From Nitrosarchaeum koreense MY1 (GTDB lineage: Archaea > Thermoproteota > Nitrososphaeria > Nitrososphaerales > Nitrosopumilaceae): 64,000 bases of DNA. The notes under the pieces are model-generated. The model searched no databases and was not told where the DNA came from. It saw only the letters and a program-made list of their open reading frames with translations. Of this stretch, positions 4,979 to 7,668 are shown in pieces; the stretch's first letter is position 1; each line of letters starts with the position of its first letter. Both the position numbers and the translations under genes were made by a program. The DNA is taken from contig NZ_AFPU01000001.1 of the NCBI RefSeq assembly GCF_000220175.1, positions 434,001-498,000 on the forward strand, in the 5' to 3' direction.

Positions 4979-6076
4979 TTACAATACAGGCTTGATTGCT
5001 CCAGATAAAAGAGCATGATCTGCCAAAGTTAGAGCAACTAACGAATCTACTACTGGTGGGGCTCTAGGAACTACACATGGATCGTGCCTTCCTTTTACTT
5101 GCAGTATGGTGTCTTTTTTGGTTTTAATGTCCACAGTACTTTGTTTTTGTGCTATTGATGATGCAGGTTTGAATGCAATTCTAATTGTTATTGGCATACC
5201 ATTTGATATCCCGCCTAAAATTCCTCCTGAATTGTTTGTTTTTGTAATTATTTTCCCTTTTTTTATTGTGTACAAGTCATTATTTTCTGAACCTGATAAT
5301 TCTGAGCCTTTAAACCCTGAACCAAATTCTACTCCTTTAACGGATGGGATTGAAAATATTGCTTTACTTAAATCTGATTCTAATGACCCGAAGATAGGTT
5401 CTCCAATTCCAACTGGTACATTTGTTGTGATTGATTCTATTATCCCTCCAAGAGAATCTCCTTTTTTTCTTGCATCTAATATTGATTCTCTCATTTTTTT
5501 TGCAGTTTTTTCTTCAGGACATCTTACTTCGTTTTTATAAATTGAGTTAATCATTTTTTCATTAAATTTATTTTCCATTTTTATTTTTCCAATCTGTGCT
5601 GTAAATGAATTTGTTTCAACACCTAGTGTGACTTTTAATAATTTTCTTGCAATTGCTCCTCCCATTACATGAGTTGCAGTTAATCTTCCAGAAAATCTAC
5701 CTCCTCCTCTATAATCATTAAAATGATTATATTTTACCATGGCTGGATAATCTGAATGCCCAGGTCTGAGTTTTGTTTTCAAATTTTCATAGTCTTTTGA
5801 TTTCTGATCACTATTCCAAACTATCATTGTAATCGGTGCACCTGTAGTATGTCCTCTAAAAATTCCAGAAATAATTTCTACAATATCTCCTTCTTTTCGC
5901 TGTGTAGAAATCAATGACTGCCCAGGTTTTCTAAGATCTAACATTTGTTGAATTTCTTTTTCATCAATTTCTAATCCTGCAGGGCATCCGTCTAAAACAG
6001 CTCCTATGGATTTTCCATGACTTTCACCAAAACTGGTTAAAACAAGACGCTGACCAATTGAACTTCCAGGCAACAT
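4979..6076 (-). CDS. aroC: Chorismate synthase AroC
   Basis: 365 residues with the chorismate synthase signatures GESHGKSIGAVLDGCPAGL near the N-terminus, RPGHSDYPAMVKY, DYRGGGRFSGR and the C-terminal GRHDPCVVPRAPPVV. It uses reduced FMN to eliminate phosphate from EPSP and form chorismate. It follows aroA in the same direction but is separated from it by 323 bp that hold a structured RNA candidate on the opposite strand. It is followed with a 4-bp gap by the chorismate mutase fusion, so it probably heads its own sub-operon. Confidence 0.96.
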   Translation of the reverse strand: MLPGSSIGQRLVLTSFGESHGKSIGAVLDGCPAGLEIDEKEIQQMLDLRKPGQSLISTQRKEGDIVEIISGIFRGHTTGAPITMIVWNSDQKSKDYENLKTKLRPGHSDYPAMVKYNHFNDYRGGGRFSGRLTATHVMGGAIARKLLKVTLGVETNSFTAQIGKIKMENKFNEKMINSIYKNEVRCPEEKTAKKMRESILDARKKGDSLGGIIESITTNVPVGIGEPIFGSLESDLSKAIFSIPSVKGVEFGSGFKGSELSGSENNDLYTIKKGKIITKTNNSGGILGGISNGMPITIRIAFKPASSIAQKQSTVDIKTKKDTILQVKGRHDPCVVPRAPPVVDSLVALTLADHALLSGAIKPVL

Positions 6077-6283
6077 ATTGTGATAGTAAATTGATGCTTA
6101 TAATTCCTCATTATGAAAAAACACAAAAAATTTTCTCAAATTTGACGAATTTTGTATCAATTTACATGTGTTTAATAATTACATATTTTCTTTAAAATAA
6201 TTATAATTATTACAATTAATATTTAAATATCAAAATAACGTACAATATATGTGCAAAAACGTGTAAAATCTAACAAATGATTT

Positions 6284-6367
6284 GCGCGGCTCTGCGAAAA
6301 ATGCATGTTATCTTCGTAAAAACGAAGTGGGTGAGGAGAATGCTTTTCACTCTATACAGGGTCGCGC
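6284..6367 (+). ncRNA. Structured RNA candidate with closing stem and two hairpins
   Basis: This GC-rich island stands out in very AT-rich DNA. A 7-bp closing helix joins GCGCGGC (6284-6290) to GTCGCGC (6361-6367), with one G-U pair. Inside are a perfect 6-bp hairpin CTTCGT-AAAA-ACGAAG (6312-6327) and an 8-bp hairpin GTGAGGAG-AATG-CTTTTCAC (6331-6350), which needs two G-U pairs if read as plus-strand RNA. An AT-rich TATA-like stretch lies at 6221-6229, and T-runs follow at 6368-6381 and 6389 on, as for archaeal termination. It does not match tRNA, 5S, SRP, RNase P or C/D-box patterns I know. Plus strand is favoured; minus, as an aroC leader, is possible. Confidence 0.5.
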
Positions 6368-6399
6368 CTTTTACCTCTTTTTGATAATTTTTTAAAATT

Positions 6400-7668
6400 T
6401 TACTCTAGTGTGATTTTTGCCCCTAATTTGTTCATCTCACTGACAAAATTAGGATATGATACTGATACTGATTCATAATCTGTTACGATACAATTACTAA
6501 CATACATTCCAGCAATACAAAATGCCATGAATAATCTATGATCATTTTCGGAATTTAATAACGCCCCTCTTAATTCATTTGACGACTCTAAAATTAAACC
6601 GTCTTCTTTCTCTTGTACTTTAATTCCTATTTTAACTAGTTCTCTAGATAGTATGGAGATTCTATCTGTTTCTTTTAATCTTGCATGTTTTACATTTATA
6701 ATTTCAATTGGATTTGTTGTTTTTACTGCTAGAATTGCTAATGGGGGAAGCAAGTCTGGTGAATTGTTTAAATCGAATCTTCCCCCGCTAAGTTTATCTG
6801 GTGTTTTAATTGTGATATGTTCTTCTGCTATGGTTACTTTTACTCCCATTTGTTCTAAAATATCGATAAACACTTCATCTCCTTGAGGTAGGTTTCCAAT
6901 TTTACCATGGATTACAACATTTTCTCCATTTAATACTGCAGCTGAAAGTAGTAATGCTAAACTTGAAAAATCAATTGGTACAGTAAATGCAGATGATTTG
7001 TATAATTGGGGTGAAATATTGTATTTTTTATATGGAATTAATGTTTGTACTGTAACCCCAAAGTTTCTCATTGTTGCAATGGTTGCATCAAGATATGGTT
7101 TTGAAACTAAATTCCCATCGATGTTTAAGTTAATTCCTTTTTCAGTTAACGGTGCACAAATTAGTAGTGCTGATACAAATTGACTCGAAAAATTTCCAGG
7201 AATTGAAATATCTCCACCTAAAATTCTTCCCGTAATTTTGATTGGTGGCATTCCATTTGTTGAAGTACATTTTGCTCCTATACTTTTTAATGCATCAAGT
7301 AGTGGTTGCATTGGTCTTTTTTGAAGACTAGTATCTCCTGTCAATGTAATTTCATTAGCGAATAATCCTGCAATTCCCGATGCAATCCTTATGGTCGTTC
7401 CTGAGTTTTTAGCATCGATTTCAGGTACATTTATGTCAAATTTTATTGGTTTTCTGACAATTATTGACGAATCTAACTCTTCAATTTCCGCTCCAAATTT
7501 CTTACATGTGTCTATTGTTGCAACTGTATCGTCTGAAAACAACACATTGTCAATTTTGCTATCGTTGCCTGCAAGTGCTGCAAGAAAGATTGCTCTGTGT
7601 GAATAACTTTTATTTGCAGGACATGTGATGTGGCCTGTTATTTTTGATTTTTCTACTTTACAATTCAT
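6400..7668 (-). CDS. aroA: 3-phosphoshikimate 1-carboxyvinyltransferase (EPSP synthase)
   Basis: 422 residues. EPSP synthase signatures are present: CPANKSYSHRAIFLAALA near the N-terminus (shikimate-3-phosphate/PEP site), AKNSGTTIR (the NSGTT loop), GDxSLQKRPM, GNFSSQFVSALL, and the late LKETDRI and DHRLFMAF motifs. It transfers enolpyruvate from PEP to shikimate-3-phosphate. Its first codons overlap the end of the shikimate kinase gene by 11 bp, as expected for co-translated consecutive steps. Confidence 0.96.
   Translation of the reverse strand: MNCKVEKSKITGHITCPANKSYSHRAIFLAALAGNDSKIDNVLFSDDTVATIDTCKKFGAEIEELDSSIIVRKPIKFDINVPEIDAKNSGTTIRIASGIAGLFANEITLTGDTSLQKRPMQPLLDALKSIGAKCTSTNGMPPIKITGRILGGDISIPGNFSSQFVSALLICAPLTEKGINLNIDGNLVSKPYLDATIATMRNFGVTVQTLIPYKKYNISPQLYKSSAFTVPIDFSSLALLLSAAVLNGENVVIHGKIGNLPQGDEVFIDILEQMGVKVTIAEEHITIKTPDKLSGGRFDLNNSPDLLPPLAILAVKTTNPIEIINVKHARLKETDRISILSRELVKIGIKVQEKEDGLILESSNELRGALLNSENDHRLFMAFCIAGMYVSNCIVTDYESVSVSYPNFVSEMNKLGAKITLE

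Follow-up and report, generated by a model that had tools for sequence, protein, structure and literature searches.

The window analyzed here is a stretch of 64,000 nucleotides from Nitrosarchaeum koreense MY1, in which a 323-base gap separates aroC from aroA. Within this AT-rich gap, 84 bases of the plus strand (6284–6367) form the conserved body of what we call the aro RNA (family A). The features of the locus are the following.

4979–6076, minus strand: aroC
6223–6229, plus strand: TATA box TTAAATA, 28 bases upstream of the start codon at 6251
6251–6280, plus strand: micro-ORF of 9 codons, GTG CAA AAA CGT GTA AAA TCT AAC AAA TGA, probably leaderless
6266–6283, plus strand: P0 hairpin (6266–6270 with 6279–6283), from the fold of 6252–6376, overlapping the end of the micro-ORF
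6284–6294, plus strand: 5' strand of the closing stem P1, 11 bp, from fold and covariation
6295–6311, plus strand: J1/2, a conserved A-rich single strand of 17 nt, CGAAAAATGCATGTTAT, from alignments of relatives
6312–6327, plus strand: P2 hairpin, 6 bp (6312–6317 with 6322–6327), AAAA loop, from fold and covariation
6329–6352, plus strand: P3 hairpin, 10 bp (6329–6338 with 6343–6352), AATG loop, from fold and covariation
6353–6356, plus strand: J3/1, 4 nt, TATA, invariant in alignments of relatives
6357–6367, plus strand: 3' strand of P1, from fold and covariation
6368–6400, plus strand: T-rich tract 3' of P1, CTTTTACCTCTTTTTGATAATTTTTTAAAATTT, a likely transcription terminator by its sequence, with a T-rich tract in relatives too
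6400–7668, minus strand: aroA, convergent with the aro RNA

The plus strand of 6284–6367 adopts a single dominant fold with a minimum free energy of -35.2 kcal/mol (z -5.71), which none of 200 shuffled sequences equaled. The minus strand of the same segment gives a much weaker fold (-21.8, z -2.86), as expected because the plus strand contains G-U pairs. The body is predicted to be a three-way junction in which P1 encloses P2 and P3. The original prediction had described three helices with AAAA and AATG loops in an AT-rich gap followed by T-runs, and all of these lie where it placed them; its 6-bp middle hairpin is correct, but the closing stem has 11 bp rather than 7 and the third hairpin 10 bp rather than 8. 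The P3 loop of relatives reads AATG or AAAG. Compensatory versions of P0 were read by eye in two loci, L036 and L012. The window sequence would permit a pseudoknot between the P3 loop and J1/2 (GCAT with ATGC); it was rejected, as relatives have ACAT and the pairing is not kept.

The aro RNA is a single-copy gene in its own genome, and DNA searches with it gave matches in 13 of the 18 genus genomes and in 101 of the 250 family genomes; the family A collection comprises 71 loci. With the structure fixed beforehand, double changes were seen across 48 relatives in 12 of the 27 base pairs, and every measure exceeded all 500 shuffles. Among 58 distinct relatives including the diverged Nitrosotalea, in an alignment that was fitted to the structure and hence leans toward it, double changes occur in 17 of the 27 pairs, with 156 double-change cells observed against 48.5 ± 4.7 in shuffles; counts across relatives, here and below, do not represent independent events. 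Pairing reaches 96.5% in register and 34–58% in slid controls (34–44% for a slide of one column). P1 is paired in 98.9–99.1% of cells with double changes in 6 of 11 pairs, P2 in 88.8% with double changes in all 6 pairs, and P3 in 98.3% with double changes in 5 of 10. The 19 Nitrosotalea sequences alone, whose aro-type copies are about 70% identical, recover the three helices in an independent MAFFT alignment, with double changes in 9 pairs. Lack of covariation or conservation was what the original prediction had named as evidence against itself, and the reverse was found; its reading as a structured small RNA is upheld by the fold, the covariation and the lack of an Rfam match. The locus is almost certainly a gene for a small structured RNA.

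A search of the 64-kb window with Rfam 15 at curated cut-offs returned two tRNAs elsewhere and nothing at the aro RNA, and at E ≤ 10 positions 6080–6410 gave only chance matches outside the RNA. Six loci of the second family described below were likewise without an Rfam match. The original prediction had been unable to assign a known class, which is borne out for Rfam at both curated and relaxed thresholds. ARAGORN places no tRNA or tmRNA gene at the aro RNA. An archaeal H/ACA guide RNA was rejected because the only ACA on the 3' side (6356–6358) runs into the P1 strand, where its C changes to T together with its P1 partner (pair 11–76, GC in 42 and AU in 4). On inspection of 6251–6367, boxes C (RUGAUGA) and D (CUGA) of a box C/D sRNA are absent, and no K-turn or hammerhead core was seen in the aro RNA. 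No viral contig matched the family A motif; the single viral match to the motif of the second family lies in a GC-rich, tailed-phage-like contig that has nothing of the rest of the RNA and was set aside as chance.

The TTAAATA box shows 0–1 changes per base in 89 relatives, and its distance is fixed. In the first 800 kb of the genome, TTAAATA upstream of ATG starts forms a sharp peak at -27 to -30. As the box lies 28 bases before 6251, the transcript is expected to begin at 6251, not at 6284, and would thus be leaderless. The TATA-like element of the original prediction is real, but it is expected to drive a start at 6251, which would extend the RNA by about 33 nt upstream of the 5' end that had been proposed. 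Going beyond that prediction, the transcript very probably starts with the leaderless 9-codon frame. Between the box and the start (6230–6250), the 89 relatives share two invariant A's and a nearly invariant TA(T/C)A element, possibly an initiator or factor site.

The stop codon of the micro-ORF ends at 6280, 3 nt before P1. A stop lies 3–4 nt before P1 in 88 of 89 distinct relatives (TAA in 46, TGA in 40, TAG in 2), and the start codon of these 88 is ATG in 81, GTG in 4 and another triplet in 3. The one relative that has no stop there, L068 (G111), carries an RNA that is otherwise mostly intact, with P1 partly mismatched. No internal stop occurs in the micro-ORF frame of the 88, whereas the other two frames are interrupted by stops in 57 and 61 of them. 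In L062, L063 and L152, which represent two lineages, the first start has been lost and an ATG stands exactly one codon later. Codons 2, 4, 8 and 9 are highly variable in family A, amino acid changes included. The intervening codons being free to change, the peptide is not conserved, and what is kept is an open frame in a fixed position; the case for translation is accordingly carried wholly by frame, start and stop. The start codon is moderately accessible, with a mean unpaired probability of 0.62 in family A and 0.81 in the second family. From these frame statistics, the micro-ORF is likely to be translated.

The frame could also be a by-product of a purely structural non-coding RNA, for instance an RNP component, with the start and stop triplets left by the promoter, the start site and P0. 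Most of the conservation is indeed held by stems and loops, the peptide is not conserved, and P0, whose pairing constrains part of the micro-ORF bases, accounts for the purines at two positions of the stop codon. P0 can thus explain part of the stop-codon conservation, but neither the missing internal stops nor the shift of the start codon. Against a non-coding RNA stand the zero in-frame stops in 120 copies of the two families, where the other frames are full of them, the start displaced by exactly one codon in the three loci named above, and a frame length in the second family that varies by 3 nt. We consider this explanation rather improbable, though one of the two strongest competitors.

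Most carriers (Nitrosarchaeum, Nitrosopumilus and two further genera) have the aro RNA between aroC and aroA, an arrangement that would allow a cis element of these genes (a leader, attenuator or bidirectional terminator). The RNA is, however, on the strand opposite to both genes. In Nitrosotalea it occupies another locus, after genes that by sequence reading are RNase Z-like and Sir2-like, with the next gene convergent, and at L051 its orientation relative to the neighbor genes is reversed. In several species an inserted gene parts the RNA from aroC, and the second family sits in unrelated gaps. These changes of locus refute the cis reading, to which we assign next to no probability. A leader, riboswitch or attenuator was also rejected as a class, aroA being convergent and no co-directional downstream gene conserved; no consistent downstream gene was found in relatives among the copies of either family that were examined. 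The genes inserted next to aroC are one of about 350 codons in L005 and L012 and a histidine-kinase-like gene in L007 and L027, and the region beside the aro RNA promoter in these four loci is an apparent insertion hot spot. On the evidence of gene order, the aro RNA gene is autonomous from its neighbors.

Carriers of family A are Nitrosarchaeum, part of Nitrosopumilus, Nitrosotalea and two further genera. Records with the exact 3' motif come from Nitrosarchaeum, Nitrosopumilus, Nitrosotalea, Nitrosomaritimum and other Nitrosopumilaceae MAGs. A near-identical Nitrosopumilus-type RNA (L143) was found on a KSB1-binned contig, JAJDAE010000327.1, which is probably mis-binned. Several Nitrosopumilus species and one Nitrosarchaeum lack family A or retain only decayed copies, absence per genome having been judged with filters able to miss diverged copies; family A is therefore dispensable there. 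In one Nitrosarchaeum species (G013) the aroC–aroA gap holds a deletion relic, L292, which consists only of the 3' P1 strand and the T-rich tail. A decayed aro-type RNA of Nitrosopumilus, L167 (G164:C4:9669–9746, minus strand, 29 bits), has a broken P1, has lost the TATA box, and its micro-ORF is stopped at codon 6.

A second family, family B, was traced from a 14-bit hit in G013, found while genomes without the aro RNA were being searched. Its members follow the same plan: a TATA box at about -28, a frame of 8–10 codons, a stop 3–4 nt before P1, two inner hairpins and a T-run. The structure consists of P1, an extra inner stem (GCAGAAC with GTTCTGC), an A-rich single strand, P2 and P3, and the helix homologous to P0 covaries in a small sample of 14 sequences. 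Family B DNA matches 177 of 250 genomes of the taxonomic family at E ≤ 0.1, a count in which many of the weakest matches may be chance. Genomes carry 1–5 copies, usually 2–3 strong ones in Nitrosarchaeum and Nitrosopumilus. Two copies lie on the plus strand of the same genome outside the window, at G000:C1:966303–966400 with the micro-ORF MMSKSLSAE* and at G000:C1:1560803–1560902 with MPKDIIPID*. The original prediction concerned one RNA between two genes; by these comparisons it is an RNA gene that has no tie to aroA or aroC and belongs to a larger set, with 1–5 further copies per genome.

The frame is present in 32 of 32 family B copies read, with 8–10 codons, a stop 3–4 nt before P1, and ATG as the start except for GTG or TTG in three copies. 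Internal stops number 0 of 32 in frame, versus 24 and 20 in the other frames. The main frame measures 27 or 30 nt, so insertions have kept the frame. All 32 micro-peptides carry S or P beside the start and terminate in D or E, with a variable middle. A conserved open frame within a small RNA, as in dual-function sRNAs, is thus found in both families. Retention of the frame in both families, together with the S or P and D or E residues of family B, would suit the view that the peptide of 8–10 residues is the product that matters and that the RNA body merely stabilizes its mRNA. This view fits poorly with the variation of family A codons 2, 4, 8 and 9 at the amino acid level and with an RNA body that is far better conserved, and we regard it as quite unlikely.

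A covariance model built from family B only found the aro RNA as its best match at 11 of 12 loci, with E values of 1e-4 to 5e-3 in 46 kb. The matches are full length (positions 1–98) and on the correct strand except in L014, where the opposite strand scored higher. A sequence profile of family B matched the aro RNA more weakly (E 3e-4 and 0.14). Families A and B are very likely one superfamily; their homology is argued from modest scores and the shared plan, and the alternative is that they may have converged. The same model matched 177 of 400 genomes and 16 of 66 genera of the order, and 150 of 350 genomes and 16 of 78 genera of the class, all of the matches listed in both searches being Nitrosopumilaceae. 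With lax filters it matched 33 of 34 genomes chosen as diverged, from 15 genera, the exception being G023. By these matches, family B is present in most genera of the Nitrosopumilaceae. It is possibly because family B remains that family A is dispensable in some lineages.

The plan was also sought by a scan that uses no RNA sequence and asks for a TATA box, a start 26–31 nt further on, 7–11 codons, a gap of 1–6 nt before the stem, a GC-rich 9-bp stem closing 65–125 nt later and a T-rich tail. Over the 1.6-Mb genome and half a Nitrosopumilus genome, the scan returned solely the aro RNA, in both, and one family B copy; the remaining family B copies, whose P1 is bulged, fall outside its design. 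Reversed sequences gave zero matches. The thresholds were set after the RNAs had been seen, and the scan therefore shows how rare the plan is and is not an independent discovery.

Taken together, the data are best explained by a free-standing small RNA that acts in trans and folds in a manner coupled to leaderless translation, a reading to which we give a probability of roughly 0.5. Comparison of relatives argues for its promoter and spacing, the covarying structure, the start-to-stop frame, the 3–4 nt between stop and P1, the autonomy of the gene and the second family; the coupling of ribosome and P1 is a model argued from geometry. The RNA's own TATA promoter would give a transcript of about 120–150 nt, a leaderless mini-mRNA whose 5' end coincides with or adjoins the start codon of the 9-codon frame, with a stop 3 nt before P1 and then a T-run. 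A 70S ribosome would initiate on the 5' AUG or GTG, melt the P0 hairpin and terminate against P1. Ribosomes cover about 10 nt past the stop codon, and the terminating ribosome would therefore have to open or abut P1, which would couple folding of the body to leaderless translation. That such coupling is the function of the RNA is a tentative proposal, which we hold to be somewhat less probable than not. Still more speculative is a new class of translation-gated RNA, which would recruit a ribosome to its leaderless frame of 8–10 codons and in which termination 3–4 nt from a stem would switch the fold of the body and so read out leaderless translation, with paralogues tuning the response.

The body would act in trans, and its most probable role is that of a binding platform for the ribosome or a protein: conserved and largely helical, with loops that do not vary, it points to such a partner rather than to a short seed. 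The seed alternative is an antisense sRNA in which the conserved single strand of J1/2 pairs with mRNAs. J1/2 is unpaired, four genera share an almost unchanged 3' half, ACATGTTAT, and the complement of this half contains an ATG. However, when J1/2 was compared with the start regions of 662 orthologue pairs from this genome and half a Nitrosopumilus genome, it scored no better than shuffled seeds, and its sequence differs in Nitrosotalea. We hold an antisense role to be improbable, to about the same degree as the structural non-coding RNA discussed above.

Few cells in sea and soil are as abundant as those of ammonia-oxidizing archaea, and we found no description of a lineage-wide regulatory RNA in this group. 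The present analysis yields two sequence-related families, a definition of the RNA at gene level, search models, and the precise coordinates of start and stop. Archaea commonly use leaderless translation, and to our knowledge few of its regulators have been described. With its leaderless micro-ORF and fixed geometry, a structured RNA of this type offers a direct and testable way into the process. Annotation pipelines do not call frames of 9 codons, and here it is frame statistics, and these only, that bring the frame to light.

Several known systems resemble the aro RNA in part. HgcC, HgcE, HgcF, HgcG and SscA of Rfam are RNAs of GC-rich islands in AT-rich archaeal genomes, and the aro RNA was likewise found as a GC-rich structured patch in an AT-rich genome, although no Rfam family matches it. 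Like bacterial attenuator leader peptides, it has a short frame directly before a strong hairpin followed by T's; unlike them, it has no downstream gene on the same strand, the next gene being convergent here and in most copies examined. Tan1 (Thalassoarchaea ncRNA 1) is an abundant, uncharacterized marine archaeal ncRNA of 229 nt whose reported occurrence is confined to group II Euryarchaeota (PMC5069720), and by that description it is set apart from the aro RNA by lineage. Neither the aro RNA nor family B was found described in the literature searched, nor does a thaumarchaeal RNA of this kind appear in the accessible part of the Red Sea TSS paper. Small archaeal RNAs with a short frame or ribosome association are known from Methanosarcina mazei and, as ribosome-associated sRNAs, from Haloferax volcanii (PMC12482152, PMC11456600). 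As far as the available portions of these reports describe them, such sRNAs with small ORFs are the closest functional class, likened by description and from distant archaea. Both RNA families thus appear undescribed, within a broader kind, the small RNA with a small ORF, that is already known. Compared with the M. mazei and H. volcanii sRNAs, again as described in those portions, the RNAs reported here differ in having 8–10 codons that are predicted from promoter spacing to be leaderless, in a frame that ends at a fixed 3–4 nt before a conserved three-way junction, and in a plan common to two families across one taxonomic family.
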